Shown piece by piece: positions 37,650 through 52,110 of a stretch of 52,110 bases of DNA. The translations under genes were made by a program, and so were the position numbers. Where the stretch lies: contig WOYX01000019.1 in the NCBI GenBank assembly GCA_011620595.1, positions 56,809 to 108,918 on the forward strand, read 5' to 3'. Origin of the DNA: Bacteroidales bacterium (lineage in GTDB: Bacteria; Bacteroidota; Bacteroidia; Bacteroidales; VadinHA17). Within the stretch, counting starts at the first letter, position 1. Every line of letters starts with the position of its first letter. A model generated the notes under the pieces. It was given only the letters and a program-made list of their open reading frames with translations. It made no database searches and was not told the origin of the DNA.

Positions 37650-37701
37650 CAAAGGAACCTTTTGATGTTATTTACTGATGACCTGGCAGACAGCAGCGGG
37701 A

Positions 37702-37893
37702 CTACTCCTCCTCCTGCTGCAGTTGCTGAACATAGATGGCCTTCTTTATCTCTTCCCTGCGGCGGACCGAGGGTTTGATGAAAGCCTGGCGCGACCTGAG
37801 CTCACGGATAACACCCGTCTTTTCAAATTTCCTCTTGAATTTCTTCAGTGCCCTGTCAATGTTCTCGCCTTCTTTTACCGGTACTATAATCAT
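37702..37893 (-). CDS. rpsU: 30S ribosomal protein S21
   Basis: 63 residues: VPVKEGENIDRALKKFKRKF then a basic C-terminal tail with a Gln/Glu-rich end. It belongs to the small subunit near the anti-Shine-Dalgarno region. First gene of the operon, behind a consensus promoter, 52 bp before xerC. Confidence 0.97.
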   Translation of the reverse strand: MIIVPVKEGENIDRALKKFKRKFEKTGVIRELRSRQAFIKPSVRRREEIKKAIYVQQLQQEEE

Positions 37894-37922
37894 AATTTAA
37901 CTTTAGTGTTAAAAACGAGCCG

Positions 37923-37953
37923 CAAAATTAATATCTATCCAAATCATTTCAAA
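37923..37953 (-). promoter_or_regulatory. Promoter of rpsU-xerC-hpf
   Basis: On the minus strand TTTG (37950-37953), 19 bp, TAATTTTG (37923-37930): a full match to the phylum consensus, 30 bp before the rpsU ATG. It overlaps the last codons of the upstream helix-hairpin-helix gene (stop at 37944). Confidence 0.82.
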
Positions 37954-39017
37954 ACTTTTGACAAAATAAATTCATAATCCTCTCCGGTGACCTCTTCCGG
38001 GGGTCTTACATATGGTGCCAGTCGCTCAGCCTGCAGGGGTGATATGACTTTCCCTTCAACCAGGCTGCCAAGGGTCAGGGGTGCCTCTGCCAGCGACCGG
38101 TAGGCTGTTATGAGCCTTGCCGTCTCGTGTCCGACATATGGATGGCGGGCCAGGGAGCCGAAGGAGGCGCTGTCGAGCAGAAGTGGCCTCACCGCCTCAA
38201 AGGTGAGGGTTACCCTTCCTGACACCATCCTGACAACCGTGCTGTCTATACCGTAGACCTCTCCGAGCTGCTCCCTGGCGACAAAACCTCCGAGAAGAGC
38301 GCGGTATCTGATGATCCTCTCCGACAGCACCGGACCTATCCCCGGCAGCTGCTCGAGCTCCGCGGCGGTGCAGATGTTAAGGTCAATCATCGGACTCTCG
38401 CTGCCGTAATCAGGGTCAGCATTGCCTGTCGCACGATCATCAGCCGTACCGGCATTCCTTCCTGCCGGGCCTGCCGCCGGACGATTCCCTGAACCCGATG
38501 CACCGTCAGCATAACTTGATGCCGGAATATCAGCGCTGCCGGGATACCGCTCACCACTGCCCGGCAGGGTTCGCTCTCCTGCTGCCGCGGCATCAGCCCT
38601 CTGTCTGCCATTAGCAATTACAATATATGGTATAAGCCGTGCAGCATCAGCTGAGTCAATACCGTAAACCCTGCCTATATCCTCCGGGCGGCGGAACCGT
38701 GCCCCGCTGTTCCGGTAGCTTACAAGGGTGGCAGCCTGCCGTTCCGTCAGGCCGAGTTGCAGGAGCTCATCATATGATGCGGCGTTAGGATCGAAGGTGA
38801 AAAGCTCCGGCAGAATCCTGTCCGCATTGGCACCTCCGGACTCTGCAGTGACAGCCTCAGACGTCTCATCACTCACCTCACCCCTCTCCGGCACCCGGAA
38901 GGCAACAAACCTGAAGATTAACAGCAGGATAAGAAGAACAGAGAGCAGGTACGTACCTCTCCTCTCCCGCCGGTCATGGCCAAACAGCCCGGAAACAGTC
39001 TTTCTGAATGACTTCAC
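37944..39017 (-). CDS. Membrane-anchored helix-hairpin-helix (ComEA-like) protein
   Basis: 357 residues. A basic N-terminus and one membrane helix (YLLSVLLILLLIFRFVAFRV, residues about 24-43) are followed by several HhH modules: FDPNAASYDELLQLGLTERQ with TLVSYR (about 75-100), IDLNICTAAELEQLPGIGPV with LSERIIRYR (about 210-238), and a third-fourth pair near the C-terminus. The linker between modules 1 and 2 is Gly/Ala/Ser-rich and low complexity. ComEA-like proteins bind DNA non-specifically; in competence they pull DNA through the envelope. No comEC is adjacent, so competence is only a possibility. The start codon appears to be GTG (39015-39017); no in-frame ATG precedes the membrane helix. 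Confidence 0.82.
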   Translation of the reverse strand: MKSFRKTVSGLFGHDRRERRGTYLLSVLLILLLIFRFVAFRVPERGEVSDETSEAVTAESGGANADRILPELFTFDPNAASYDELLQLGLTERQAATLVSYRNSGARFRRPEDIGRVYGIDSADAARLIPYIVIANGRQRADAAAAGERTLPGSGERYPGSADIPASSYADGASGSGNRPAAGPAGRNAGTADDRATGNADPDYGSESPMIDLNICTAAELEQLPGIGPVLSERIIRYRALLGGFVAREQLGEVYGIDSTVVRMVSGRVTLTFEAVRPLLLDSASFGSLARHPYVGHETARLITAYRSLAEAPLTLGSLVEGKVISPLQAERLAPYVRPPEEVTGEDYEFILSKVLK

Positions 39018-39090
39018 CTGTTGTAATACAGCAAGAACAGAGGAAAGATAGGCAAAAAACTGAAGCCAGTCAAGGGTCAGTTCTGTCCAC

Positions 39091-39159
39091 AGTCTTCAGT
39101 CGGCAGTTGGCAGTCGTGACTTTTGACCAAAGACTGAAGACTGCTGACTGCTGACTTCA
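39091..39159 (-). repeat. Heptamer array with inverted arms directly after the tamL stop
   Basis: Plus strand: AGTCTTC-AGTCGGC-AGTTGGC-AGTCGTG (39091-39118), then GACCAAA-GACTGAA-GACTGCT-GACTGCT-GACTTCA (39125-39159), all in a 7-bp register. The second group is the reverse-complement type of the first, so the block can fold back. The tamL stop codon (39157-39159) forms the edge of the array. Confidence 0.7.
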
Positions 39160-41517
39160 GAAAGGATATCCTATTCCGATGACTATCGAGACATCATCCC
39201 GGGCATTGAACGGCCTGTTGAGGGGTATCCATTTTGATCCTTCGGAGTATTGGGGGTCACGCAGTTTAAGGCCCAGGTCCGTTCTCAGCAGCAGGAACTT
39301 GAGGTCAAACCTCAGTCCGAAGCCTGTTCCCACGGCTATCTCATCGGTGAAGGTACTTATCCTGAACCGGCTCCCGGGTCTGTCATCATCCTGCCTGACA
39401 GTCCAGATATTACCCGCATCAAGAAAGAGTGCGCCCTCAAGTATCCAGAAGAGCCTGAACCGGAATTCGGCGTTGGCCACCAGCTTCATATCAGCTGTCT
39501 GGTTTATGAACGGGCTATCGGGAATCACATAGGATCCCGGACCCAGTGCCCTGACCACCCATGCCCTGATATCATTGGCGCCGCCACAAAAATACTGCTC
39601 CTCGAAAGGCAATACTTGTGAATTACCGTACGGCAATCCCACGCCTGCAAAAAACCTGCACACAAAGCTGCTCTGCTCATTGATCCTGAAATGGTAGCTG
39701 GCATCGGCCTCTCCTTTCAGGAATTGTGCGAAGGGCTGGCGGAAGAGGTGGTAAGTGCCATCCTCCTGCTGTCCGGCACCGACAGCCTTGTACCCCAGGT
39801 TCAGGAGGTTGCCTGCCGCATCAAAGCCCAGCCTGATATTCCAGTAATCCCTTGATTTCTTAATTATCTGGTTGTTGAAAACAAAGTCGAATCTCCCGCC
39901 CATAATGGTGACATCACGGTAAGAGTATGCCAGGTATGACATCTCATCAATGACAGCCTGAAACTCCGGATCCACATAGTGCAACTTCACGACATTGAAT
40001 GAGAGAGGGTTCAGGTTGAACCTGGTGAACTTGTTGCCACTCCAGTTGTAACCCAGTGATATGTTGGCAACCGAACGTGCATAGATAGGCAGCTTCTGAT
40101 AGTTGAATCCGGCCTGTATAACCGTCCCGGGGTCATGCTTCCTGATGAAGTTCTCTCCTCCCTGAAACGGGCTCAGGACCCTGGGCAGCCGGAGGATGGC
40201 CTCGAGGCCGTACTGCTCGGTATTCTTGAAGCCTTTTACATCTTCGGTGAGAGTCTCATATGCCCCCTTTAGCTTCATGCTGAACAGCTCTGCCCCACGG
40301 AAGAGACTCTTGTTCTGATAAACCAGGTTCACTGCCCCTCCCAGGTTGCCTCCGGAGTGAGTGCCCTCAAGCTCTACGCTGAACGACTGCCTCTGCATGG
40401 GGGTCAGCTGTATGATACAGTCGAGCACTCCTTCATCTCGCCACCCTTCCGTCAGGCTCCCGGCTTCACTGTATGAGATGTTCACCAGCCTGTGGTTCTT
40501 AAGATCGGCAAGGTGGGCCTCGGTCTGCTCTGTATTGGTGACACTGAAGAGAGTGCCGGGCAACACGTACATCGATTGCGTTATAACCTCATGCTTGACC
40601 ATACTCCTTCCCGGCGGCTCAATGAAATAGATTCCTCTGTGGAAAGTCGTATCAAAGGACATGGTATAACGCTCACCTTCCGTGAGCGCCAGCCGTGGGT
40701 CAAAGGAGGGATAGACGTATACATCACCTACACGGTACATCCTGTGGTTGCTGTAGGATGGTCTTCCCCGGCTGTCGGTCGTCGACCGTGGAGTGACAAC
40801 ATAGTTTACGATAACCTGGTGGCTCATCAGTGCACTGTCGATCCGGAAATAGATGTTCTCCGTCGAGAAGGTATAGAATCCGATGTCCCTGACAAAGCGT
40901 TCCAGTCTCTTCCTCTCCTTCTGCAGCAGGTCTACATCATAGAGCATACCCCTTTCAATGAGGCAGTTGACAGTATCGCTCAGCACAAGACTCCGTAGCA
41001 GCGTATCCTGGATTTCGTATTTTATGTCCTTGATGGTATAGGGACGGCCAGGCTCTATCATATAGATTACCTCAGCCTCCTTTCCCTTTATCCTTATGCT
41101 GTCAGCCACACCGGCATTAAAGAAACCCTTTGAGCGCAGATAGCTTTCCAGCTGTCCTGCCGACCTCTCCGCTGCAGCGGGGTCGAAGATCACGGGCTCC
41201 TCACCAATACGTCTCAGCCAGCCGTGAGGCCACTTCTCCTTTTCCGGGTTTGAAAGGTTATAAAGCCCGAGATAGAACCGTACTCCGAGGATCTTCTTGT
41301 TGGGCTGCTGCCTGATATAGGGTTTCAGGGCACGCTTATCGACCCTGGCAGGCAGCGGATCAACCTGTTCCTGCACCTGCAGCTCACTCCGACTGAGAAG
41401 CATCTCACCGCCCGGAACATATTTTGTGGGATTGCACGAGGCAGCCGTGAAAATTACGCCCGTCAGCATAAGGAGTTTGGGCAGGGTAATTTTTATATTT
41501 GTCCTCTGATGATCCAC
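39157..41517 (-). CDS. tamL: BamA/TamA-family outer membrane protein, TamL-like lipoprotein
   Basis: 786 residues. The N-terminus is a lipoprotein signal (TLPKLLMLTGVIFTAASC, Cys28). POTRA-like repeats fill the first half, e.g. YLRSKGFFNAGVADSIRIKG and FVRDIGFYTFSTENIYFRID. The second half is a 16-strand-type barrel with aromatic strand ends. It includes the Omp85 signature region around PFEEQYFCGGANDIRAWVVR and ends VSIVIGIGYPF. In Bacteroidota a lipidated TamA homologue (TamL) works with TamB in outer-membrane biogenesis. No tamB is in view on either side. The start is GTG (41515-41517): the next ATG would cut off the n-region of the signal peptide, and the promoter start point lies about 16 bp upstream. 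Confidence 0.88.
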   Translation of the reverse strand: MDHQRTNIKITLPKLLMLTGVIFTAASCNPTKYVPGGEMLLSRSELQVQEQVDPLPARVDKRALKPYIRQQPNKKILGVRFYLGLYNLSNPEKEKWPHGWLRRIGEEPVIFDPAAAERSAGQLESYLRSKGFFNAGVADSIRIKGKEAEVIYMIEPGRPYTIKDIKYEIQDTLLRSLVLSDTVNCLIERGMLYDVDLLQKERKRLERFVRDIGFYTFSTENIYFRIDSALMSHQVIVNYVVTPRSTTDSRGRPSYSNHRMYRVGDVYVYPSFDPRLALTEGERYTMSFDTTFHRGIYFIEPPGRSMVKHEVITQSMYVLPGTLFSVTNTEQTEAHLADLKNHRLVNISYSEAGSLTEGWRDEGVLDCIIQLTPMQRQSFSVELEGTHSGGNLGGAVNLVYQNKSLFRGAELFSMKLKGAYETLTEDVKGFKNTEQYGLEAILRLPRVLSPFQGGENFIRKHDPGTVIQAGFNYQKLPIYARSVANISLGYNWSGNKFTRFNLNPLSFNVVKLHYVDPEFQAVIDEMSYLAYSYRDVTIMGGRFDFVFNNQIIKKSRDYWNIRLGFDAAGNLLNLGYKAVGAGQQEDGTYHLFRQPFAQFLKGEADASYHFRINEQSSFVCRFFAGVGLPYGNSQVLPFEEQYFCGGANDIRAWVVRALGPGSYVIPDSPFINQTADMKLVANAEFRFRLFWILEGALFLDAGNIWTVRQDDDRPGSRFRISTFTDEIAVGTGFGLRFDLKFLLLRTDLGLKLRDPQYSEGSKWIPLNRPFNARDDVSIVIGIGYPF

Positions 41518-41539
41518 CTTAACGGAAAAATAGCGAAAG

Positions 41540-41569
41540 CAAATATACCATTATAAATATTATCTTCAA
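41540..41569 (-). promoter_or_regulatory. Promoter of tamL
   Basis: On the minus strand TTG (41567-41569), 19 bp, TATATTTG (41540-41547), a perfect -7 box. The -33 box ends 10 bp before the divergent RNA methyltransferase ATG. Confidence 0.8.
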
Positions 41570-41579
41570 TTACTGAACA

Positions 41580-42356
41580 ATGCCCGCGACGATCACCAAA
41601 AGACACGTAAAAATGATACTTTCGCTTCAGAAACGAAAGTTCAGGGAGGAGCACGCGATGTTTGTCATCGAGGGCGACAAGCTGGTCCGTGAGTACATCC
41701 TGGCAGGCAACAGGGTGGCGCTGCTTGCCGGCAAGCCTGAATGGATCGACGGAGAGCCGGAGACTGTCACCTCCGGCGCCGATGAGATTGTGACCGTCAG
41801 TTACGATGATCTCAGGCGTATCAGCTCGCTGAGGACTCCCCATAACGTGCTGGCTCTGGCTCCCATGACCGTGGGCCGCTGGTCAGATGACCTGACAGCG
41901 GGAAAGCTGACCCTGGCTCTGGAGTGCGTGCAGGACCCCGGCAACCTTGGAACCATCATTCGTATTGCAGCCTGGTTCGGCATCGGAAACATCATCTGTT
42001 CACCCGACAGCGTAGACTTTTACAATCCCAAGGTGATACAGGCCACCATGGGTGCCTTCATGCACGTCAGCGTATGGTACCGGCCGCTTGAAGAACTACT
42101 GGAGAAGGCAGTTGGTGAAGGCATCAAGGTATACGGCGCCACCACCGGCGGCAGCAATATTTATGACAGCCCCCTCGGCAGTGAGGGTATCATACTGCTC
42201 GGAAATGAGTCAAAGGGTATCTCACATGATCTGTTGAGGCATGTCACAGAGCGAATTGCCATCCCTGGGCCTGAACGGCCCCTGGCAGGACTGGAGTCAT
42301 TGAATGTCAGCATGGCTGCTGCTATTATCTGCTCGGAATTTGCCAGGAGAAAATAA
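41580..42356 (+). CDS. TrmH/SpoU-family RNA 2'-O-ribose methyltransferase
   Basis: 258 residues. An N-terminal substrate-binding domain (FVIEGDKLVREYIL, residues about 24-37) is followed by the SPOUT knot domain. The three motifs are LECVQDPGNLGTIIRIAAWF, IILLGNESKGI and IPGPERPLAGLESLNVSMAA, which carry the AdoMet pocket and the catalytic Arg/Asn. It methylates a ribose in rRNA or tRNA; the site is not evident. It is divergent from tamL with 62 bp between starts, and is followed by a heptamer repeat 10 bp after the stop. Confidence 0.92.
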   Translation: MPATITKRHVKMILSLQKRKFREEHAMFVIEGDKLVREYILAGNRVALLAGKPEWIDGEPETVTSGADEIVTVSYDDLRRISSLRTPHNVLALAPMTVGRWSDDLTAGKLTLALECVQDPGNLGTIIRIAAWFGIGNIICSPDSVDFYNPKVIQATMGAFMHVSVWYRPLEELLEKAVGEGIKVYGATTGGSNIYDSPLGSEGIILLGNESKGISHDLLRHVTERIAIPGPERPLAGLESLNVSMAAAIICSEFARRK

Positions 42357-42365
42357 GGGATGTAC

Positions 42366-42405
42366 AATTTGCGATTTGCAATTTGCAATTTGCAATTTGC
42401 GATTG
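42366..42405 (+). repeat. Heptamer array (AATTTGC/GATTTGC)
   Basis: Five exact heptamers, AATTTGC-GATTTGC-AATTTGC-AATTTGC-AATTTGC (42366-42400), and a sixth partial GATTG. It begins 9 bp after the RNA methyltransferase stop codon. Confidence 0.92.
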
Positions 42406-42411
42406 TCTCCG

Positions 42412-42468
42412 GCCGCCGAAGCCTTCTTCGAGCTCCGCAGCTTAAGCGAAGGAGGTGGCGAAGGTGGC
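42412..42468 (+). repeat. 57-bp interspersed repeat, copy A
   Basis: Identical over 57 bp to 47742-47798. The flank before it is also similar (GATTGTCTCCG against GACTGCCTCCA). Inside are nested dyads (CTTCG/CGAAG and AGCT/AGCT round a CCGC loop) and end motifs GCCGCC/GGTGGC, so it can fold into a hairpin. It lies in a convergent intergenic gap. Confidence 0.9.
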
Positions 42469-42476
42469 TGAGTGTT

Positions 42477-42499
42477 GACTGAAGACCGAAGACTGCCTA
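42477..42499 (-). repeat. Heptamers adjoining the FAD oxidoreductase stop
   Basis: GACTGAA-GACCGAA-GACTGCC (42477-42497) in a 7-bp register, ending in the stop codon of the minus-strand oxidoreductase (42497-42499). Same family as the array behind tamL. Confidence 0.6.
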
Positions 42500-44038
42500 C
42501 AGCCTCCTGCCTCTTATCTGAGCAACCAGCATTCCGTCAACGGCAGAGGAGACGATACCGCCGGCATAGCCGGATCCTTCGCCTGCGGGATATAAACCTC
42601 TGATATTAACGGCATTGAGCAGCACGGGATCACGAATGATCCTGACCGGCGATGAGGTACGCGACTCAACTGCCGCCACCAACGCCTCATTGGTTACATA
42701 TCCCTTCATTCTCCTGCCGAATTCCGCCAGTCCGTACCGCAGCCTGCTGACAAGCTCTTCCGGCATCCACTCATGAAGGGGCGACGGTGTCAGTCCCGGG
42801 AAGTAGGATGACGCCGGCAATGTGGAAGAGGCCTTTCCTTCGATAAAGTCTGCGAGCCTCTGTGCCGGAGCCCGCTGTGTCATGCCTCCCTCCTTCCACG
42901 CCATCGTTTCAAGGGATGCCTGGTAATCCATGCCTGCCAGTGGTCCGCTGCCATATCTCATAGCATCCTCCTCGTCTATCCCGGTTACCACCCCGCTGTT
43001 GGCCCACCGGGAGTTGCGGCCTGAAGGCGACATGCCGTTCACCACCACCTCGCCGGGTGAGGTTGCTGACGGTACCATGAATCCTCCCGGGCACATGCAG
43101 AACGACCATACGCCGCGGCCATCGGGCGACTGCACCGCCAGATTGTATGCCGCTGCAGGAAGATACTCACCCCGCGAACTGCCGTGATACTGTATCCTGT
43201 CAATCAGCTCCTGCGGGTGTTCCGCCCTCACACCCATGGCAAATGGTTTGAAGGCCAGCTGCACTCCTGCCGCCTGCAGGATGCTGAACATATCCCTTGC
43301 CGAGTGGCCTGTTGCCACAATCAGGTCGGAGGCTCTGATCACCTCGTTGTCGTTGACCACCACTCCCCTGAAGTTTCCTCTCTCAATAACAAGGTCACTT
43401 ATCCGGCTGCCGAAGAGAACCTCGCCTCCCGCATCGGTGATGCTCTTTCGAATGGCTGTGATGATGCCCGGGAGCCTGTCCGTGCCGAGATGAGGATGAG
43501 CTTCGTATAGAATTGCCGGGTCAGCGCCGTGAAGCACCAGCAGCTCGAGCACCCGGCGGTTGTCGCCTCTCTTTTTTGATCTTGTGTAGAGCTTACCGTC
43601 GGAGAAGGTTCCGGCACCACCCTCGCCGAAGCAGTAATTTGAATCAGGGTTCACAATGTGCTTTCGGCTGATGGCTGCAACATCCCTCTTCCGTTCGCTG
43701 ACCGCCCTGCCCCGCTCAAGTATCACAGGTTTGAATCCCAGCTCTATAAGCCGCAACGCAGCGAAAAGCCCGGCCGGTCCGGCGCCGGCAATGAGTACCT
43801 CGGGCGATCGGGTTACATCTTTGATACTGAGAGGCTCAATTTCCGGCACAGGCTCATCAGCTGCCATGACCTGTACCGTCAGGCTGACCTTTATGTCAGG
43901 CTTGCGGGCATCAACGGAACGCCTCGTCACACGGTAAGAGAGGTCACTGCGCCCAACCTTCCGCTCCAGGTACTTTTTCAGGGCCTCCTCATCAAAGGCA
44001 GTCTGAGGAGGCAACACCAAAGCATACTCCTGAGGCAT
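42497..44038 (-). CDS. FAD-dependent oxidoreductase of the COG2509 type
   Basis: 513 residues. An N-terminal alpha/beta domain of about 85 residues precedes the dinucleotide-binding motif VLIAGAGPAGLFAALRLIE (residues about 86-104). Further family signs: FGEGGAGTFSDGKLYTRSKK (about 147-166), a second NAD/FAD contact LIVATGHSARDMF, CMCPGGFMVPSATSPGEVVV, and the C-terminal FAD motif GLYPAGEGSGYAGGIVSSAV. This is a widespread family of uncharacterised dehydrogenases; the substrate is unknown. It starts 2 bp after porT, and therefore belongs to the ubiE-porT transcript. Confidence 0.9.
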   Translation of the reverse strand: MPQEYALVLPPQTAFDEEALKKYLERKVGRSDLSYRVTRRSVDARKPDIKVSLTVQVMAADEPVPEIEPLSIKDVTRSPEVLIAGAGPAGLFAALRLIELGFKPVILERGRAVSERKRDVAAISRKHIVNPDSNYCFGEGGAGTFSDGKLYTRSKKRGDNRRVLELLVLHGADPAILYEAHPHLGTDRLPGIITAIRKSITDAGGEVLFGSRISDLVIERGNFRGVVVNDNEVIRASDLIVATGHSARDMFSILQAAGVQLAFKPFAMGVRAEHPQELIDRIQYHGSSRGEYLPAAAYNLAVQSPDGRGVWSFCMCPGGFMVPSATSPGEVVVNGMSPSGRNSRWANSGVVTGIDEEDAMRYGSGPLAGMDYQASLETMAWKEGGMTQRAPAQRLADFIEGKASSTLPASSYFPGLTPSPLHEWMPEELVSRLRYGLAEFGRRMKGYVTNEALVAAVESRTSSPVRIIRDPVLLNAVNIRGLYPAGEGSGYAGGIVSSAVDGMLVAQIRGRRL

Positions 44039-44040
44039 GG

Positions 44041-44775
44041 CTACTCAAAATGGAAAGAGAGGACCCACATCTGCGACCTGAGTGAACTGATCGAATTGGC
44101 ATAGTCAGGATAGCCCGGTGCCGGCTCATGAACCAGCACGTCACGCAGCCCGTTTGACATCTTTGCCTCAACGGTCAGCTTGAAATAGGGAAGGTAGAAG
44201 TCGATGCCTGCCCCCACCTCATAATAGAGGTCAGCTCTTTTGAGCCTTAGATATACAGGCCTCTCATCATCATACTCCTTCTTCCCCGCGAGGTCATACC
44301 TGAAGTTCAATCCACCTATAAGGTAGGGTCGTGAGTTGTTCAGCCTCATCCCCTTTGCTTTCAGCAAAAGGGGAAACTCCAGAAATGATGACTCCAGCAC
44401 CTGCGGCTCACCAAACTTTTTTACCAGTGAGATGTCGAGAGAGTCGTAGAAGGCGTAGAAATTGATATTCCTCTGCCCGAAAGAGACCCCCGGCAGGAAC
44501 CTGATGTCAAGATATGTTGCCGGCCTGAAATCCGTTACTATCTGTATATTGATACCCGGCTTGACGGCCATAACCTCTGCCTTTAAAATTTCCCCGTCAT
44601 TCGTCCGAAATTCGTCAGCCATCACTACCCTGAAATCCATGGCATTCATGCCCATGCTGAACCCGAAATGCAGAAGCCTCTCGTCATAGTTCGAATCATT
44701 CTTTGGCTTCGCCTTCTGCGCCGTCAGCAAGACCGGGATCAGAAGTAAAAGGAGTATGGTAATTTTCTTGTGCAC
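44041..44775 (-). CDS. porT: PorT-family outer membrane beta-barrel protein
   Basis: 244 residues, the length of P. gingivalis PorT. A signal peptide (MHKKITILLLLLIPVLLTAQ) is followed by about eight amphipathic strands and an aromatic C-terminus (MWVLSFHFE). PorT is needed for type IX secretion in Bacteroidota that have the system. The neighbour pair ubiE-porT is conserved in the phylum, which supports the name. No other type IX gene is in the window. The start is GTG (44773-44775); no in-frame ATG fits. It is 62 bp after ubiE. Confidence 0.85.
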   Translation of the reverse strand: MHKKITILLLLLIPVLLTAQKAKPKNDSNYDERLLHFGFSMGMNAMDFRVVMADEFRTNDGEILKAEVMAVKPGINIQIVTDFRPATYLDIRFLPGVSFGQRNINFYAFYDSLDISLVKKFGEPQVLESSFLEFPLLLKAKGMRLNNSRPYLIGGLNFRYDLAGKKEYDDERPVYLRLKRADLYYEVGAGIDFYLPYFKLTVEAKMSNGLRDVLVHEPAPGYPDYANSISSLRSQMWVLSFHFE

Positions 44776-44837
44776 TGCTATGAAGAGTCCTGATTAATAT
44801 TAACGGAAATAATTGGAATTATTGTGTCCTAAATTAT

Positions 44838-45563
44838 TTAGGTTCTGAATCCATAGTAAATACTTGCTATGCCGCCGGTCAGACGCTTCTGTCTTGTATT
44901 TTCAAACCCTGCCTCACGCAGCAGTTCCAGGAAAGCCTCATTGTCAGGAAATGTTGTCACCGACTCTGGCAGGTAGGAGTATGCGCCGGGGTCACCGGAG
45001 ACACTCCTTCCAATTCGGGGTAGGATTCTTCTGAAGTAGAACCCGTAAATCTGTTTCATCGGGAACCACGAAGGCTTTGAGAACTCTAGCACCATAACCA
45101 TTCCTCCGGGCCTGAGTACCCTATGCATCTCGCGAAGCCCGGTGACGGTCTCCTCAAAGTTGCGGACCCCGAAGGCTGACATTGCCACATCGAAGGTACC
45201 GTCGCTGAAATCCATGGAGAGCGAATCCCCACTTAGCATCTCAATCCTGCCGGCCAGTCCCAGCTTCTCAACCTTCCTCCGTCCTATTGCAAGCATCTCG
45301 TTGCTGATATCGATCCCGGTGATCTTCTCGGGAACAAGGTTCATGGCAGCGATGGCCAGGTCGCCGGTGCCGGTGGCCACATCAAGAATATGTGACGGGG
45401 CAACATAACGGCCTATCAGGCTTATTGCCCTTCGCCTCCAGCGCCTGTCGGTGCCCAGCGAAAGCATCCTGTTGAGAAGGTCATAGTGAGAGGAGATGGA
45501 ATCGAACATGGCCTCCACCTCATGCCTCGGACTTCTCCTTATCTGATCATTTTCCTGCATCAT
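44838..45563 (-). CDS. ubiE: Demethylmenaquinone methyltransferase (UbiE/MenG)
   Basis: 241 residues from the ATG at 45561-45563. An earlier TTG frame start overlaps the -7 promoter box and is rejected. It methylates demethylmenaquinone with AdoMet, the last step of menaquinone synthesis. Motif I is ILDVATGTGDLAIAAM, then GIDISNEML, and the UbiE-specific FDSISSHYDLLNRMLSLGTD at the N-terminus and YFRRILPRIGRSVSGDPGAY late in the protein. It heads the ubiE-porT-FAD-oxidoreductase operon. Confidence 0.95.
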   Translation of the reverse strand: MMQENDQIRRSPRHEVEAMFDSISSHYDLLNRMLSLGTDRRWRRRAISLIGRYVAPSHILDVATGTGDLAIAAMNLVPEKITGIDISNEMLAIGRRKVEKLGLAGRIEMLSGDSLSMDFSDGTFDVAMSAFGVRNFEETVTGLREMHRVLRPGGMVMVLEFSKPSWFPMKQIYGFYFRRILPRIGRSVSGDPGAYSYLPESVTTFPDNEAFLELLREAGFENTRQKRLTGGIASIYYGFRT

Positions 45564-45578
45564 TTTTCCGTTGCGGGC

Positions 45579-45586
45579 CAAAGATA
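45579..45586 (-). promoter_or_regulatory. -7 element of the ubiE operon
   Basis: On the minus strand TATCTTTG matches TAnnTTTG, 15 bp before the ubiE ATG. No TTTG is seen at 19-21 bp, so the -33 part is weak. Confidence 0.55.
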
Positions 45587-45629
45587 CCCCATAATATTTT
45601 TACATTTACGGGACAGAAACAGATATCAT

Positions 45630-46394
45630 ATGAAAAAGACAGTACTTATCACCGGTGCCACCTCGGGCATCGGAAGGGCTACAGCGGAGAGATTTGCAAA
45701 AGCATCATACAGGATAATTATTACCGGCAGGAGGAAGGAGAGGCTCGACGAGCTGGCCATGGAGCTTGCTGCCAGGTACGGAGTTGAGATCCTGCCCCTT
45801 GTCTTTGATGTACGCAGCAAGGCTGAGACAGAAAAGCATCTTCTTAACCTTCCCGCTGAATGGCGTGACATTGATATCCTCATCAACAATGCAGGGCTTG
45901 CGGTGGGTCTGGCCCATATCGACGAGGGTGATACCGATGACTGGGACCGGATGATAGACACCAATGTCAAGGGGCTGCTCTATGTCACCCGGGCTGTTGC
46001 TCCGGGCATGGTAAAGAGAGCCTCCGGACACATCATCAACATTGCATCAATAGCAGGCAAGGAGGTATATGAGAACGGAGGGGTCTACTGTGCCTCGAAG
46101 CATGCCGTTGATGCTCTCTCCAGGGGCATGCGCATCGATCTCCTGAAGCACGGCATCAAGGTTACGAACATTGCCCCGGGTATGGTTGAGACGGAGTTCT
46201 CGCTCGTGCGCTTCAAGGGCGACAGCACCCGGGCAGCTTCAGTCTATGAGGGTATAGATGCACTCAGGGCTGAGGATATTGCTGATGTAATCTTCTATTG
46301 TGCAACCCTTCCGGAACATGTTTGCATTAATGATCTGGTAATAACCCCCACCAGCCAGGCAAACGCAACCAACAGTGTCAGGAGAAGGAAGTAG
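45630..46394 (+). CDS. Short-chain dehydrogenase/reductase (SDR)
   Basis: 254 residues from the ATG at 45630 (MKKTVLITGATSGIGRATAE). An upstream open extension overlaps ubiE and is not used. NADP-type cofactor motif TGATSGIG (residues 8-15) with an Arg-rich strand end (TGRRKERL), then LINNAGLA, the catalytic Ser in HIINIASIAGKEVY, and Tyr-x-x-x-Lys in VYCASKHAVDALS. It belongs to the YdfG-like serine/3-hydroxy acid dehydrogenase group by overall look; substrate not known. A heptamer array starts 2 bp after the stop. Confidence 0.92.
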   Translation: MKKTVLITGATSGIGRATAERFAKASYRIIITGRRKERLDELAMELAARYGVEILPLVFDVRSKAETEKHLLNLPAEWRDIDILINNAGLAVGLAHIDEGDTDDWDRMIDTNVKGLLYVTRAVAPGMVKRASGHIINIASIAGKEVYENGGVYCASKHAVDALSRGMRIDLLKHGIKVTNIAPGMVETEFSLVRFKGDSTRAASVYEGIDALRAEDIADVIFYCATLPEHVCINDLVITPTSQANATNSVRRRK

Positions 46395-46396
46395 GG

Positions 46397-46610
46397 GATT
46401 TGCGATTTCAGATTTTCGATTGTCGATTTAATGAAATCGTAAATTACAACTCGGACATCTCAAATAGCCATAAATCGCGCATCGCAATTCGCACATCATA
46501 ATTCGCACATCGCAATTCGCGCACCGCAATTCGCAAATCATAATTCGCACACCGCAATTCGCGCATCGCAATTCGCAAATCGCAAATCGCAAATCAAAAA
46601 TCGCAAATCC
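46397..46610 (+). repeat. Large heptamer array between SDR and Ldh-family genes
   Basis: Left part 46397-46431: five GATTTNN heptamers (GATTTGC, GATTTCA, GATTTTC, GATTGTC, GATTTAA). Right part 46472-46604: exactly 19 heptamers plus a partial one, alternating AATTCGC with variants of AAATCGC (ACATCGC, GCACCGC, AAATCAT, ACACCGC, GCATCGC), which gives a 14-bp higher-order period. The right part has the reverse-complement orientation of the left (AAATCGC against GCGATTT). It ends 2 bp before the ATG of the next gene. Confidence 0.93.
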
Positions 46611-46612
46611 TT

Positions 46613-47689
46613 ATGTACGACCACAAATATCTGCTTGAATTCACCACCGGCCTCTTCATGGGCGTTGGATGCAGTCGTGCCGATGCTGCCGCCGTTGCCA
46701 ACGTTTTGATAGCGGCAGAGCTCCGCGGTCACTCTTCCCACGGCATGATAAGGGTAAAGGAGTATTATGAGCTCTGGAAGAGCGGCAGGGTGAACGTCAC
46801 CCCTGACGTTAAGGTGGTTCACGAGACGCCGTCGACGGCGGTTGTTGACGGCGACAGCTGCTTCGGCATGGTGGCCGGTGTCAGGTCAATGCGTCTGTCA
46901 ATAGAGAAGGCCGCCGTTACCGGCACGGGCTGGGTGGCGACACGCAACTCCAACCACTTTGGCATTGCGGGTTATTATGCCATGATGGCTCTCGAACATG
47001 ATATGATTGGCATCTGTGTTACCAATGCCAATCCGCTGGTTGTTCCCACCTGGTCTGTCAGCCGTTATCTTGGCACCAACCCACTTGCGGTGGCAGTGCC
47101 GGCACTGAATGAGCCTCCCTTCGTTGCCGACTTCGCCACCACCCCCATCGCCCGCGGCAAGCTGGCGGTGGCGGAGAAGAAGGGTGAGAGTGTGCCGCTG
47201 GGTTTAGTACAGGATGCCGAGGGCAACCCTTCGGATGACCCCGGCATTCTGCGCCGCGGCGGGGGCATGCTCACCCTCGGCGGCGACCGTGAGCACGGCA
47301 GCCACAAGGGTTACTGCATGACCGCTGTAGTTGATATCTTCAGCTCACTCTTCAGCGGCGCCAACTTCGGTCCCTTCGTGCCTCCCAGTGTGGCCTACCT
47401 CCCCGTGCCGGAGAACCAGCCGGGCAAGGGCACGGGCCACTTCTTCGGAGCCATGCGCATCGACGCCTTCAGGCCTGCCGATGAATTCAAGGCGTCAATG
47501 GATGCATGGATCAAAACCTTCCGAAGCGCCAAACCGTCACAGGGCGAGACGAGGGTGCTGATACCCGGCGACCCTGAGCGCGAAGCCGAAGAGCGTTACA
47601 GAAAGGAAGGCATAACCCTGGTGCCGGCTGTGATTGAAGATCTGAAGGCCATTGCAGCGGAACTGGGGATGAGCTTCAGGGAATATTAA
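46613..47689 (+). CDS. Ldh-family malate/lactate/ureidoglycolate dehydrogenase
   Basis: 358 residues of the NAD(P)-dependent 2-hydroxyacid dehydrogenase family that is unrelated to classical LDH (MDH2/YlbC/ComC-like). Conserved: ELRGHSSHGMIRVKEY (residues about 36-51), VATRNSNHFGIAGYYAMMAL with the catalytic His, GTNPLAVAVPA (cofactor site) and GSHKGYCMTAVVDIFSSLFS. The product is cytoplasmic; malate, sulfolactate and ureidoglycolate are possible substrates and cannot be told apart here. There is no normal leader: the heptamer array reaches to 2 bp before the ATG. Confidence 0.9.
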   Translation: MYDHKYLLEFTTGLFMGVGCSRADAAAVANVLIAAELRGHSSHGMIRVKEYYELWKSGRVNVTPDVKVVHETPSTAVVDGDSCFGMVAGVRSMRLSIEKAAVTGTGWVATRNSNHFGIAGYYAMMALEHDMIGICVTNANPLVVPTWSVSRYLGTNPLAVAVPALNEPPFVADFATTPIARGKLAVAEKKGESVPLGLVQDAEGNPSDDPGILRRGGGMLTLGGDREHGSHKGYCMTAVVDIFSSLFSGANFGPFVPPSVAYLPVPENQPGKGTGHFFGAMRIDAFRPADEFKASMDAWIKTFRSAKPSQGETRVLIPGDPEREAEERYRKEGITLVPAVIEDLKAIAAELGMSFREY

Positions 47690-47741
47690 CAGGCGTTGAT
47701 GTTTACTTAAATGTGACAGCCCTGGCTGCCGACTGCCTCCA

Positions 47742-47798
47742 GCCGCCGAAGCCTTCTTCGAGCTCCGCAGCTTAAGCGAAGGAGGTGGCGAAGGTGGC
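47742..47798 (+). repeat. 57-bp interspersed repeat, copy B
   Basis: Identical to 42412-42468. It sits in the 116-bp convergent gap between the Ldh-family gene and the nitroreductase, preceded by GACTGCC-type heptamers (47725-47740). Confidence 0.9.
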
Positions 47799-47805
47799 CG
47801 CTGCC

Positions 47806-48549
47806 TCATAATGCGAATCCCTGCTTCCTGATCACCTCAAGGTACCTGGCAGAGAAGTGTTCATTGTCAGCTTTCCGGTAGCGAACATCAGTGAAGACCT
47901 GTGCCAGCGTCTGCTTGCCGTTTTCGGCAATGAATTGCAGCGAGTCCTTGCGCGCCTCCTTCTCACTGTAGAGATCATTGATCATTTCAGGCGTAAAGTC
48001 GCGGTACGTCTCATGATGAACCACCGCATCCAGCGGCAGCCTGTCAGGCTGCTCCGGCACCTCCGCCGGCCACCCCATGGTCACTGTCGCCACAGGCACC
48101 ACTCCTGAAGGAAGCTCCAGCAGGTCAATAATCTGACCGGCATTGTAGGTTGCCGTACCCAGGTAGCATATTCCCAGCCCCTCCTCCTCGGCAGCGTTGC
48201 ACACCGTCTGCGCCACAATCAGGGCATCGATGGCCGCGGTCATGAATGAGAGAAAATTGTCATAGCCGGGCTCGGCATCCCGCTGCCGGCACCACTTGTT
48301 GAACCGGTTGAAGTCGGCACAGAAGGTGAGTACCACCGGAGCCTCCGTCACCATCGGCTGGTTGAAGTGCGCGGGAGCAAGTTTGCTCTTCATCTCAGGG
48401 TCTCGTGTGATTACTATGCTGTATACCTGCATGTTGCCCGTAGTGGAACTCCTGGTGCCTGCCGTCAGTATGCGCTCAAGCAGCCCGTCGTCAATATCTC
48501 TCTCATCATACTTCCTGATGGTCCTCCTGGTAAAATAGGTGCTGTTCAT
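47806..48549 (-). CDS. Nitroreductase-family FMN protein
   Basis: 247 residues from the ATG at 48547-48549 (MNSTYFTRRTIRKYDERDID). The 20 extra upstream codons read into AT-rich promoter DNA and are not used. FMN-phosphate contacts: TRRTIRKY near the N-terminus. The middle carries AQTVCNAAEEEGLGICYLGT, the glycine-rich loop of this family, and VVPVATVTMGWPAE. It probably reduces quinones, nitro compounds or flavin-linked substrates with NAD(P)H; the true substrate is unknown. Convergent with the Ldh-family gene. Confidence 0.9.
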   Translation of the reverse strand: MNSTYFTRRTIRKYDERDIDDGLLERILTAGTRSSTTGNMQVYSIVITRDPEMKSKLAPAHFNQPMVTEAPVVLTFCADFNRFNKWCRQRDAEPGYDNFLSFMTAAIDALIVAQTVCNAAEEEGLGICYLGTATYNAGQIIDLLELPSGVVPVATVTMGWPAEVPEQPDRLPLDAVVHHETYRDFTPEMINDLYSEKEARKDSLQFIAENGKQTLAQVFTDVRYRKADNEHFSARYLEVIRKQGFAL

Positions 48550-48661
48550 GATCTCTCTTGTTATTGGTCCGGCAAAATAATTAAATAACGTTAAAAAATA
48601 AGTTGACAAATATTCTTATCTTAACTTAGTATTCATAAATTACTCATCTAAATATCTGTAT

Positions 48662-51600
48662 ATGAAAAAAATTCTGACTCTAATTCTCCTGCTGGCTCTG
48701 ACGGGTACATGCAGCCTATGGGCACAGAGGAGAGAAATCAAAAAGGAAACGAAGGGATCTGAGACCCAGGTCAAACCATCAGTATCCTCATCACTTTTCA
48801 GCGGTATCAGCTTCAGGTCGATAGGGCCGGCATGGGCATCGGGACGCATTGCTGACCTGGCTGTGAACCCCTGTAACCACTCCGAGATATATGCTGCTGT
48901 TGCCTCAGGCAATATCTGGAAGAGTGAAAACAACGGCACCACCTGGAAGCCTGTTTTTGACAAATACGGAGCCTATGCCATCGGGTGCATAGTCATCGAT
49001 CCCAACAATCATCATGTTGTCTGGGCAGGCACCGGCGAGAACAACCACCAGCGTGCCGTGGGCTGGGGCGACGGTGTTTACCGCTCCGATGACGGTGGCG
49101 CCAGCTGGAAGAACATGGGGCTGAAGGAGTCACGCCAGATAGGCGGCATAGCCATCGACCCCCGCAACAGTGATGTCGTTTACGTTGCCGCCGAAGGATC
49201 AATATGGGGTCCCGGGGGCGACAGGGGACTGTACAAAACCGTTGACGGCGGCAAGAACTGGGAAAAGATCCTCAACATCAGTGAGCACACGGGCGTCAAC
49301 AACGTAGTGCTTGACCCGCGCAACCCTGATGTGATCTACGCCACGAGCGAACAGCGGCGCAGGCACGTTGGGATGAAGATCAGCGGCGGCCCGGAGTCGG
49401 CAGTATATAAGTCGACCAACGGTGGCCTCACCTTCGAAAAAATAATGAAAGGACTTCCCTCGGGTGACATCGGGGGCATGGGCATAGCTATCTCGCCGGC
49501 AAATCCTGACGTGCTTTACCTTATCGTCGAGGCCCAGGATGAGTCGGGAGGCTTCTTCCGGACAGAAAACAGAGGCGCTTCATGGCAGAAGATGAACCCG
49601 TACCATTCCAGCGGCCAGTATTACAACAAGATAATCGCAGACCCGGTAGATGTCGACCGGGTCTTCAGCCTTGACACCTACACCATGGTCACCGTTGACG
49701 GCGGCAAGACATTCTCGCGTGTGAGCAACGACGGACGCCATGTGGATGACCACGCCATGTGGATCGACCCGGATAATACGGATCACTTTTACATTGGCGG
49801 TGACGGCGGCATCTACGAGACCTGGGACAACGGCACGACATTCATCTTCAAGTCGAACCTGCCTGTCACCCAATTCTACAGGGTGGCGGTTGACAACTCA
49901 TACCCCTTCTACTACATCTACGGAGGCACACAGGACAACAACTCCATGGGCGGACCGTCAGCCAGCACGGGTGACGGGGTGGTCAATGACGACTGGTTTG
50001 TCACCCAGGGCGGTGACGGCTTCTGGGTAGCCGTTGACCCTGTAGACCCCAACATTGTCTACACCGAGTCGCAGTATGGCAATGCCTCCCGCTATGACCG
50101 CAAGAGCGGACAGAGAATAAGCATTAAACCTTATCCGGGTGAGGGAGAGTTGACTTACCGCTGGAACTGGGACACCCCCATCCTGATAAGCCCCTCTGAC
50201 CATAAGCGTATCTACATGGCTGCCAATTTCCTCTTCCGCAGCGATGACCAGGGAAGCAACTGGACAAAGATATCGCCTGATCTTACCAGGAACGAAGACC
50301 GCGACAGGTTCAGGATAATGGACAGATACTGGCCTGCAGATGCAGTGGCCAGGCACAAGTCCACCTCACTGTGGGGAACGATTGTCTCACTTGCCGAATC
50401 GAAGGTTCAGAAGGACCTGGTCTATACCGGCAGTGACGACGGCCAGATATCAGTGACCGAAGACGGCGGCGCAAACTGGAGGATGATAAAGAGCTTCCCG
50501 GGAGTGCCAGAGTACACCTACGTCAGCGATATTCTTCCCGACAAATTCAAGGCTGACGTTGTCTACGCCACCTTCAACAACCACAAGCGCGACGATTTCA
50601 AGCCTTATGTTCTCAAAAGCAACGACAGGGGCCGGAGCTGGGTGTCAATCAGCGCCAACCTGCCGGCTGTTGGGCCGGTTCATACAATCGAACAGGATCA
50701 TGTCAATCCTGACCTGCTTTTCCTCGGCACCGAATTCAGCTTCTTTATCTCCTTTGACGGAGGTGCAAGCTGGACAGAGTTCAAGAAGGGACTGCCTACG
50801 ATTGCCGTGCGTGATATCGCTATCCAGGAGCGTGAGAATGACCTCATCATAGCCACCTTCGGAAGGGGATTCTATGTCATCGATGACTACACTCCCCTGC
50901 GCAACTACAGCAAGGATATCATTGGCAAACCAGGTTATATCTTCCCGGTCAGGGATGCCAAAATGTTTGTACAGACCAGCGGTTTCGACCAGCAGGGAGC
51001 TATGTACTACCGTGCAGAGAATCCTCCCTACGGGGCTACCATAACCTATTATGTCGATACCGTTCCAATGACTGACAGAGACATAAGAAAGGAGAAGGAG
51101 AAGAAGCTGGTTGAGAAGGGAGAGTATATTCCTCAGCCCACTCCGAGGGAACTAAGTCTGGAAGAGAGGGAGATCAAACCTTATCTGATCTTTACCATTA
51201 CGGACGATGAGGGGAATGTTATCAACAAGCTTTACAAATCAGCCTCGAAGGGTGTCAACCGCATAACCTGGAACTTCACCTACGCCGGCTATCAGCCTGT
51301 CAGGCCGACTGAGAAGTTCAATCCCGTCTCCGGTAGCGGTGGTCGAAGCAGATGGGGTGGTGGCGGCATCGCAGTAATGCCCGGCAAATATTTCGTCTCA
51401 ATGGCCATGTATGCCAAGGGAGACATGAAAGAACTGGCCGGTCCTGAGCCGTTTGTATGCCAGTCCCTTGACATCGTCACCATGCCTGTCACTGACCCGG
51501 AAGCCAGGGAGAAATGGCTGAAGGAGGTGACCGCCTTCTCGAAGACAGCCTACGGTGCCATATCATATGCTGCAGAGCTTGAGGGCAGGGTTAACACCAT

Positions 51601-51964
51601 CATGCAGACCATCCATCAGACGCCTGAGGCACCTGCATCACTCATGCAGGAGGCTGCCGCACTCAATGAGGAGATGGCTGAGATCGGGTATCTCATCAGG
51701 GGTATCTCAGTCGGTGCCAGCACCGAAGAGACTCCGCCGTCACCTGTATCGCTCTCAGCACGGCTCTCGGCCATGTCGAGGTCGCTCTACGGCAACTCCG
51801 GTGACATTTCGGGCATCTCCGATCAGCAGTTCAGGATCCTGAAGAAGGAGTTCCCCGTGCTGCTTGAGAGGATTCAGAAAGCAGGAAAGGCTATTGACGC
51901 TCTGAATGCGAAGCTTGACGGGATAAATGCCCCCTGGACATCGGGCAGGATCCCGAAACTGTAA
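48662..51964 (+). CDS. Large secreted VPS10/sortilin-like beta-propeller protein
   Basis: 1100 residues. A signal peptide (MKKILTLILLLALTGTCSLW, cleavage about residue 22) leads to a long array of BNR/Asp-box and sortilin-type repeats, e.g. SDDGGASWKNMG, TVDGGKNWEKIL, STNGGLTFEKIM, TEDGGANWRMIK and SFDGGASWTEF, spanning residues about 45-760. This predicts one or two multi-bladed propellers. The C-terminal part has an Ig-like strand region (YLIFTITDDEGNVINKLY) and a helical tail. It resembles proteins annotated as glycosyl hydrolase or VPS10-domain protein in Bacteroidota. No catalytic site can be assigned, and it lacks a visible type IX sorting domain at the end. Monocistronic. Confidence 0.88.
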   Translation: MKKILTLILLLALTGTCSLWAQRREIKKETKGSETQVKPSVSSSLFSGISFRSIGPAWASGRIADLAVNPCNHSEIYAAVASGNIWKSENNGTTWKPVFDKYGAYAIGCIVIDPNNHHVVWAGTGENNHQRAVGWGDGVYRSDDGGASWKNMGLKESRQIGGIAIDPRNSDVVYVAAEGSIWGPGGDRGLYKTVDGGKNWEKILNISEHTGVNNVVLDPRNPDVIYATSEQRRRHVGMKISGGPESAVYKSTNGGLTFEKIMKGLPSGDIGGMGIAISPANPDVLYLIVEAQDESGGFFRTENRGASWQKMNPYHSSGQYYNKIIADPVDVDRVFSLDTYTMVTVDGGKTFSRVSNDGRHVDDHAMWIDPDNTDHFYIGGDGGIYETWDNGTTFIFKSNLPVTQFYRVAVDNSYPFYYIYGGTQDNNSMGGPSASTGDGVVNDDWFVTQGGDGFWVAVDPVDPNIVYTESQYGNASRYDRKSGQRISIKPYPGEGELTYRWNWDTPILISPSDHKRIYMAANFLFRSDDQGSNWTKISPDLTRNEDRDRFRIMDRYWPADAVARHKSTSLWGTIVSLAESKVQKDLVYTGSDDGQISVTEDGGANWRMIKSFPGVPEYTYVSDILPDKFKADVVYATFNNHKRDDFKPYVLKSNDRGRSWVSISANLPAVGPVHTIEQDHVNPDLLFLGTEFSFFISFDGGASWTEFKKGLPTIAVRDIAIQERENDLIIATFGRGFYVIDDYTPLRNYSKDIIGKPGYIFPVRDAKMFVQTSGFDQQGAMYYRAENPPYGATITYYVDTVPMTDRDIRKEKEKKLVEKGEYIPQPTPRELSLEEREIKPYLIFTITDDEGNVINKLYKSASKGVNRITWNFTYAGYQPVRPTEKFNPVSGSGGRSRWGGGGIAVMPGKYFVSMAMYAKGDMKELAGPEPFVCQSLDIVTMPVTDPEAREKWLKEVTAFSKTAYGAISYAAELEGRVNTIMQTIHQTPEAPASLMQEAAALNEEMAEIGYLIRGISVGASTEETPPSPVSLSARLSAMSRSLYGNSGDISGISDQQFRILKKEFPVLLERIQKAGKAIDALNAKLDGINAPWTSGRIPKL

Positions 51965-51967
51965 CAG

Positions 51968-52002
51968 GATTTTCGATTAGCGATTTGCGATTTACGAGTT
52001 TG
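51968..52002 (+). repeat. Heptamer array after the propeller gene
   Basis: GATTTTC-GATTAGC-GATTTGC-GATTTAC-GAGTTTG, five units in a 7-bp register, starting 3 bp after the stop codon. Same family as 42366 and 46397. Confidence 0.85.
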
Positions 52003-52032
52003 GCGGTTAAACGCTGATATTCAATAAACAAC

Positions 52033-52068
52033 GCCCCCGATTTGCCAGACGGCTGTCGGGGGCTTGCT
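52033..52068 (+). terminator. Intrinsic terminator after the propeller gene
   Basis: GCCCCCGA (52033-52040) pairs with TCGGGGGC (52056-52063); an inner GCC/GGC pair closes an AGAC loop; TTGCTTTG follows. Confidence 0.8.
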
Positions 52069-52076
52069 TTGTTGGG

Positions 52077-52110
52077 ATTTGCTATTTGCTATTTGCTATT
52101 TGCTATTTGC
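52077..52110 (+). repeat. Heptamer array (ATTTGCT), cut by window end
   Basis: Four perfect ATTTGCT units and a fifth of six bases run to the last base. The array probably continues beyond the window. Confidence 0.92.

Follow-up and report, generated by a model that had tools for sequence, protein, structure and literature searches.

Parts of the literature mention heptamers of the cyanobacterium Calothrix and describe several heptamer families in cyanobacterial genomes. The name short tandemly repeated repetitive (STRR) sequences is reportedly used for these cyanobacterial heptamers, Mazel, 1990 being said to be its source. Heptanucleotides form a class among the long simple sequence repeats (Mrazek 2007, as cited in PMC4692102 and PMC4679880), and an excerpt of PMC6749651 describes heptamer satellites such as (GATAGRA)n of Chloroflexus aurantiacus. 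Excerpts of PMC4692102 describe GGGAATC and GGGGA(C/T)T heptamers of Xanthomonas and Nostoc, which are tied there to G-quadruplexes and to which that study states it could assign no part in gene regulation. TAACTGA direct repeats are described in excerpts of PMC4679880 from marine Beggiatoaceae, some Cyanobacteria and five Bacteroidetes, with insertions and deletions between two Cyanothece strains falling mostly in 7-nt steps. The subject of this report is a set of arrays with a 7-bp register in a 52,110-nucleotide stretch of DNA from a Bacteroidales bacterium (VadinHA17 lineage; assembly GCA_011620595.1, contig WOYX01000019.1, positions 56,809 to 108,918 of the forward strand), here called the window, to which an earlier note made from the sequence alone had drawn attention. 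The chief units are GATTTGC, with its variant AATTTGC (together RATTTGC), and CAGTCNN, which reads GACTGNN in the other orientation. The arrays were found to belong to a genome-wide class located preferentially at gene 3′ ends and directed away from genes, and it is considered fairly probable that they are heptanucleotide tandem repeats which turn over by 7-bp slippage and recombination and are confined by selection.

The heptamer class is already known, and what is new is the same placement and polarity in units without G-runs. As in the excerpts on Xanthomonas and Nostoc (PMC4692102), the arrays are intergenic, few lie between divergent genes, and they stand near or overlap stop codons. The orientation described there, in which repeats past the end of a gene are on its coding strand and repeats ahead of a gene on its non-coding strand, was also found in the present genus and for GATTTGC outside Bacteroidota, and convergent inverted pairs (70 in Xcc, 75 in Xac and few in Nostoc in those excerpts) and lengths that vary between relatives are features of both. 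The cyanobacterial heptamers, which the earlier note had offered as a loose precedent, are thus a closer one than it supposed, the Xanthomonas and Nostoc repeats agreeing in both placement and polarity. Unlike those G-quadruplex-forming repeats, neither the GATTTGC nor the CAGTCNN consensus has three G in a row, so the common placement and polarity require no quadruplex; set against the same excerpts (PMC4692102), several families are present here side by side in a genome, and at one orthologous site the family changes from congener to congener. The TAACTGA repeats (PMC4679880, in excerpts) resemble the present arrays in being heptameric, mostly intergenic and patchy across phyla, with array-free spacers in some relatives, and TAACTGA in sense orientation just upstream of starts corresponds in the present terms to CAGTTAT directed away from the gene. 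They differ in lying mostly upstream of starts in the BOGUAY genome, where they were proposed as translational signals, whereas the units here are others and lie mostly downstream of stops. None of the papers searched contains the present repeat strings.

The source genome (G000) is a 3.08 Mb draft of 63 contigs and 96% completeness. Within it, ATTTGCRATTTGC was matched 42 times and its reversed control not at all, and three GACTG units with one mismatch allowed gave 168 matches against 11 for the control. For a period scan, 36 stretches around listed matches were taken together with 20 control stretches, three of which consisted of N throughout and were set aside. The match stretches (378 kb) held 43 arrays of period 7 and at most 7 of any other period from 4 to 12, and the control stretches (297 kb) held 11 and at most 4 respectively, with none in shuffled sequence. 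The arrays of the control stretches were mostly of other units, such as CCTTTCT, CTTTATC, AAGAATT and AGGTCTG. These counts bear out the earlier suggestion of a genome-wide repeat class. It should be noted that CTGACNN, used as the reversed control, has high counts of its own in certain genomes (118+93 in G285 and 71+92 in G072), so that reversed patterns are poor controls for the heptamer class.

Beyond the source genome, (RATTTGC)3 was present in 15 of 22 genomes of the genus (the source included) and in none of 38 from other genera of the family and order. First-contig stretches gave 26 period-7 arrays in 312 kb for the genus and 4 in 299 kb for other genera; about half of the genus stretches were contigs already known to hold the genes studied, and the other ten gave 9 arrays in 141 kb. 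Across phyla, (RATTTGC)3 was found in at least 117 stretches of named records, those among the matches listed including Acidobacteria, Chloroflexi, Planctomycetes, Verrucomicrobia, candidate phyla, Deltaproteobacteria, Spirochaetes and two Cyanobacteria. Since these loci include Bacteroidota and the same genus, the 93 among the matches listed that lie outside Bacteroidota were recounted apart, and these held 192 arrays of period 7, of many families, against 16 for the next period. Triplets of CAGTC units were present in 25 of 296 Bacteroidota genomes and in 16 of 47 genomes of mixed phyla, with CAGTCNN very dense in one Chloroflexi genome (G062, 147+122). Confinement to this one assembly, which the earlier note had named as grounds for dropping its proposal, can be set aside, as the same arrays occur in other assemblies, including that of Desulfonema magnum, titled a complete genome. 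The pattern (RATTTGC)3 was also seen in 19 viral-contig stretches (L514-L532). Octamer arrays of CTAAACCC and TAACAATT, one of them telomere-like in look, lie near contig ends in other genera (L396, 114-167; L409, 1-66). Some contigs and one scaffold gap terminate in or next to arrays (window position 52110; L346, L382), so draft genomes may undercount them.

Placement was counted over spacers 60 bp or more in length, those that contained N or fell outside 20-900 bp being set aside, with gene calls from our own simple caller. In the source genome, arrays occupied 17 of the 54 convergent spacers, 20 of the 165 tandem ones and 3 of the 82 divergent ones (Fisher test of convergent against divergent, 1e-5), the match stretches having been picked for arrays and the comparison made within them. 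Stretches of relatives gave 37/70, 30/119 and 2/79 respectively, counts which are not independent as relatives have orthologous sites in common. No convergent preference was seen in a Chloroflexi genome set (convergent 1/8, tandem 17/52, divergent 1/7). Distance to the stop was compared with random placement in convergent and tandem spacers, for those arrays that had 30 bp or more of slack. Of 43 such arrays in the source genome 21 lay within 10 nt of a stop, where 5.2 were expected, and of 76 in relatives 37 did so, where 11.6 were expected. Placement is therefore not independent of stops, an outcome that the earlier note had said would refute its proposal, and together with the excess of convergent over divergent spacers this supports the preference for gene 3′ ends. 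Of the boundaries counted beside arrays, 115 were stop-side and 14 start-side, and in tandem spacers of relatives the array was nearer the stop than the start in 31 of 42 cases.

The choice of stop codon also differs beside arrays. Stops within 12 nt of an array were TAG in 37, TGA in 25 and TAA in 16 cases, against 136, 233 and 248 elsewhere (p 3e-6), and many stops are fused with the first array unit, as in TAG-TCGGCAGTC and TGA-TTTGCGATTTGC. It is suspected that arrays have overrun gene ends, an array unit then serving as the new stop. A fixed junction between stop and unit was considered and rejected, as the offsets occupy all seven phases, 0 and 1 being the most frequent (9 and 8 of 33).

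The units have a reading direction relative to the gene. At 24 of the 26 gene boundaries counted in the source genome they were directed away from the gene. With each boundary counted once and arrays within 20 nt considered, the ratio of away to toward for GATTTGC was 5:1 at stops and 3:0 at starts in the source genome and 28:4 and 4:0 in relatives, and for CAGTCNN it was 15:1 at stops and 1:0 at starts in the source genome and 9:0 at stops in relatives. An unmerged count per run over the genus gave 37:2 at stops and 7:0 at starts for GATTTGC, 23:1 at stops for CAGTCNN and 6:0 for TAGGCAR. The polarity weakens with distance, GATTTGC arrays more than 60 nt from a stop being 4 away and 7 toward. 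Within this genus the polarity rule is firm. Background strand bias as its source was rejected, array-free stops of the genus having no such bias; array-free starts do have an excess of G over C on the strand read away from the gene (290 against 185), so start-side polarity may partly be background.

Outside the genus the picture is more mixed. Among the at least 117 loci, those listed gave 49 GATTTGC arrays directed away and 13 toward within 40 nt, and the 93 listed outside Bacteroidota gave 37 and 12 (p 5e-4), or 20 and 8 at stops alone (p 0.04), with runs inside called genes (41 of 153 and 37 of 126 respectively) set aside. Polarity outside Bacteroidota is thus weaker than in the genus, and for GATTTGC it is likely that it extends beyond the genus. 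For CAGTCNN, a fresh prediction that units would be directed away in mixed phyla failed within 40 nt (3 away and 4 toward, or 2 and 4 without one Bacteroidota locus), while other Bacteroidota genera gave 9 away and 3 toward; 13 of 50 runs in this test set (6/20 plus 7/30) lay inside called genes and were set aside. One Chloroflexi genome, fetched after the mixed-phyla test and with one site counted in both, gave 8 away and 1 toward within 20 nt, 8 of 18 runs being set aside in the same way. In inverted blocks, which were scored independently of gene calls, the arm with AGT or ATT came first in 13 of 13 cases in the genus, in 5 of 5 in one Chloroflexi genome, in 17 of 21 in the listed members of the at least 117 loci, some of the same genus, and in 14 of 18 outside Bacteroidota (p 0.03); the AGT/ATT descriptor was selected after inspection of these loci. 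With arms defined by complementarity alone, 29 pairs in the 117 listed loci followed the AGT/ATT rule by 18 to 1 with 10 ties, and in 9 of the 29 an arm reading GCAAAT came first, mostly of the quasi-palindromic AATTTGC variant, contrary to a simple GATTTGC rule.

The arrays also change between relatives. Nine orthologous spacers bearing an array on either side or on both were compared between the source genome and its close relative G006. In six of them the length differed by 63, 35, 14, -14, -35 and -42 bp, all multiples of 7 (6 of 9 by chance, p 5e-4), the difference of -14 being two extra AAGAATT units adjoining a stop. Growth by unit steps, which the earlier note had implied, is thus supported. 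Period 7 is a common long unit among the long simple sequence repeats (Mrazek 2007, as cited in PMC4692102 and PMC4679880), and both the period and the unit-step variation found here fit the heptanucleotide simple sequence repeats of prokaryotes. In the excerpts of the surveys of such repeats that were covered, no remark on polarity at gene ends was seen. Some arrays of equal length in the two genomes had different unit variants throughout, homogenised within each array. The spacer at 46397 is retained in G006, 63 bp shorter, and consists mostly of other sequence in the relative G020. Among 21 loci of the trmH/FAD spacer read by eye, about 16 had clear period-7 or period-8 arrays of differing families: GATTTGC with CAGTC, GATTTGC twice, TAGGCAR twice, and the period-8 units AGGTCTGA and GTTTCAGA. 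Arrays were not visible by eye in G002, G008 and G013, the spacer was degenerate in G011, and that of G015 was unreadable. Period-8 arrays (AGGTCTGA, GTTTCAGA and others) occupy the same gene-end position in several congeners (L252, L254, L256, L257, L261, L266). In G013 (L264) the spacer is 21 bp long and forms, in place of arrays, a near-perfect short hairpin with the gene ends (GTAGAG...CTCTAC).

The reading considered fairly probable is a mutational one, for which polymerase slippage as the source of period 7 is a published hypothesis (Mrazek 2007, as cited in PMC4692102 and PMC4679880). Arrays would arise and change in place by 7-bp slippage, with recombination between arrays adding to the turnover. 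Purifying selection would rid coding sequence of them, and likewise the divergent spacers that bear promoters, so that they would persist chiefly downstream of stop codons, and the shifted stop-codon choice beside arrays would reflect stops rebuilt from array units. Such a process fits most of the facts, accounting for the period, the placement, the abutment on stops, the turnover and the patchiness. Several observations weigh against it. The direction of the units relative to the gene falls outside it and is not explained, slippage alone giving no reason for the combined counts within 20 nt in the source genome and relatives (GATTTGC 40 away and 5 toward, CAGTCNN 25 and 1). Were arrays born from random local seeds, one would not expect a small set of units to turn up again at many sites and in many phyla, as it does, and the form of CAGTCNN, with five fixed and two free bases, suggests more than drift. 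In tandem spacers of the source genome the array was nearer the stop than the start in just 14 of 25 cases. Three of the nine differences from G006 (-44, -3 and -1) are not multiples of 7, nor are the differences of 40 and 29 in two spacers compared with G020, where the spacer content had been replaced; the comparison of lengths between strains called for in the earlier note, run here on relatives, thus gave mostly steps of 7 against G006 and not against G020.

The earlier note had proposed a role in transcript 3′-end formation, and the arrays could be functional hairpins of RNA 3′ ends or spacers, with inverted arms that pair and act like bacterial interspersed mosaic elements (BIMEs) or two-way terminators. 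BIMEs and repetitive extragenic palindromic (REP) sequences are extragenic, lie between convergent or tandem genes and rarely between divergent ones, and occur as inverted pairs, REPs being single short palindromes with a tagged foot that are linked to REP-associated tyrosine transposases (RAYTs). The present arrays are placed in the same way and are tandem heptamers instead of single palindromes. Pairing would also agree with the consistent order of arms in inverted blocks, with the fold-back of the blocks in the window (z -2.3 to -2.5) and with the report, in an excerpt of PMC4692102, that Xanthomonas transcripts start or stop at G4-forming repeats more often than at controls. Duplexes of an arm with its own partner were stronger than with permuted partners (-24.4 against -21.9 kcal/mol, p 0.02), a slight gain, and the own arm was among the best 5% of partners in just 5 of 68 spacers, where 3.4 were expected. 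Mean fold z was about equal with and without arrays (convergent -1.34 and -1.16, tandem -1.17 and -0.59; 28 each), and intrinsic terminators, scored per stop as a GC-rich hairpin followed by a T-run, were not enriched in array spacers (convergent 10/108 with arrays against 20/140 without, tandem 1/50 against 28/234). Polarity is moreover seen in many single arms, the genus having 13 inverted blocks against 45 GATTTGC boundaries. The two arrays past the stop at 51964 have a distinct terminator-like hairpin between them, and a hairpin is also present in G018 and G009, where there is little or no array. The proposed 3′-end role is not supported. Functional readings are weak as far as tests on sequence go, and the hairpin role is regarded as rather unlikely. 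It is scarcely credible that the arrays serve as backup stop codons in all three frames: as 7 is coprime to 3, repeats of a unit that includes a stop triplet place stops in every frame, and stop choice does shift to TAG beside arrays, but in arrays at stops the away strand is not the richer one in such triplets (34 arrays against 35, with 46 equal) and GATTTGC repeats hold no stop triplet on either strand.

The direction of the units is addressed by two further proposals. Expansion could be coupled to transcription, with ribosomes leaving at the stop, the naked nascent RNA forming R-loops and arrays growing in the favouring orientation, from which a place just past stops and a sense strand with G over C and T over A would follow. 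At the 115 arrays beside stops the away strand had G over C in 89 and under in 20, and T over A in 80 and under in 29, with no such bias in array-free 3′ flanks of the genus (G over C in 158 and under in 175 of 374), and the preponderance of stop-side over start-side boundaries (115 and 14) agrees with it. Many CAGTCTT and CAGTCCA units are, however, richer in C than in G, arrays beside starts are likewise directed away from the gene and there are antisense, and the idea arose after the data were seen; such coupling is judged decidedly improbable. Alternatively, a template or mobile system, be it a telomerase-like reverse transcriptase, a transposase or copy-paste of composite spacer modules, could have laid the arrays down, as the same units throughout the genome and across phyla, the polarity and the recurrence of palindromic modules between arrays might suggest. 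A fixed template would give neither the free variation of units within single arrays nor the several families that occur per spacer, and no target duplication was noticed in the compared G006 and G020 spacer pairs, though no test was aimed at it and transposases and RAYTs were not searched. Such an origin is thought most improbable, and reverse transcription in particular is disfavoured for the source genome, in which, at 96% completeness, no RVT_1 domain was found; over the genus, such a domain is present in 4 of 22 genomes. The absence of SbcCD, a hairpin nuclease, was also rejected as the cause: SbcD passed the cut-off in none of the 22 genomes of the genus and equally in none of 14 others of the family (SbcC was not searched), and since these 14 lack the GATTTGC pattern, SbcD loss could be at most permissive. 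Counted over 36 genomes of the family, SbcD never exceeded the curated cut-off, which it did in 9 of the other 24 genomes of the relatives set.

Within the window, the 7-bp strings listed in the earlier note were all present at every place it named. A period scan of the whole length gave six arrays of period 7, two of period 6 and none of periods 4, 5 or 8 to 12, with no period-7 arrays in shuffled sequence, and Tandem Repeats Finder scores were 33 to 193. All six lie beyond 39 kb, so that the reported lack of arrays in the first 39 kb holds at the threshold of the scan. A CAGTCNN/GACTGNN block in both orientations (39085..39161) contacts the stop of the minus-strand Omp85-type gene at 39157-41517; it is inverted with the AGT arm first, and the RNA fold of 39085-39156 has z -2.42. 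Nine nucleotides past the stop at 42356 of the SpoU-type rRNA methylase gene (41580-42356), a plus-strand (RATTTGC) array of five to six AATTTGC/GATTTGC units (42366..42404) is directed away from the gene; its orthologous spacer was compared among congeners. It is followed by a GC-rich palindromic, non-heptamer module (42405..42476), identified from its sequence, the spacer fold and comparison with G006, and by a short minus-strand CAGTCNN array of GACTGAA/GACTGCC (42477..42499), which is fused with the TAG that ends the FAD-dependent protein gene (42497-44038) and directed away from it; this array is too short for the period-scan threshold and is known from sequence reading. The palindromic module, GCCGCCGAAGCC...GGTGGCGAAGGTGGC or variants, recurs within 47690-47805 and in L070, L111 and L114, often adjoining heptamer arrays, and G020 has a CAGTC array where G000 and G006 have the module.

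Two nucleotides past the stop at 46394 of a short-chain dehydrogenase gene a plus-strand GATTTGC-type arm begins (46397..46429), and the long GCAAATC/AATTCGC arm opposite it (46474..46609, minus strand), whose outer ends pair in the RNA fold (z -2.32), ends 3 nt short of the Ldh_2 start codon (gene 46613-47689). The claim that arrays follow stops therefore stands for most and fails for this arm, which adjoins the start codon at 46613 and shows that arrays are not confined to stops; the claim that the two-orientation blocks can fold back was borne out by the pairs found. On the plus strand, 3 nt past the stop of the sortilin/BNR-type gene (48662-51964), lies a GATTTTC/GATTTGC array (51968..52002), followed by the separate terminator-like element, a GC-rich hairpin and T-rich sequence (52033..52074), which was recognised from sequence, fold and comparison with relatives, a similar hairpin and T-run being at the same place in G018 and G019 and a different hairpin in G009. 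The last plus-strand array, 4.9 copies of (ATTTGCT) (52077..52110), abuts a 100-N assembly gap starting right past 52110, so that it may extend beyond the copies counted. The genes neighbouring the arrays look ordinary and encode, besides those named, a helix-hairpin-helix protein, an outer-membrane beta-barrel protein, a UbiE-type methyltransferase and a nitroreductase-family protein. Rfam at gathering thresholds reported tRNAs alone over 36000-52110, near 36 kb. A 43-bp tandem repeat of 3.8 copies at 6225-6386 is unrelated to the heptamers.

Heptamer arrays have so far been explained singly, via G-quadruplexes or translational control. The same placement and direction in units without G-runs, and the differing families at one orthologous gene end, suggest that the unit sequence is not what matters. 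With this, the old descriptive puzzle of why seven, why at gene ends and why in one direction becomes testable on existing genomes and maps of RNA 3′ ends. A broader proposal, offered tentatively and regarded as doubtful, is that the period-7 gene-end arrays of many phyla obey one unit-independent rule, in which the away strand carries AGT or ATT and the AGT/ATT arm comes first. If this were true, the literatures on GGGAATC quadruplexes, on TAACTGA in translation and on cyanobacterial heptamers would describe one phenomenon, an unnamed process at gene ends would make or keep the arrays, and the separate functional stories would have to be rethought.

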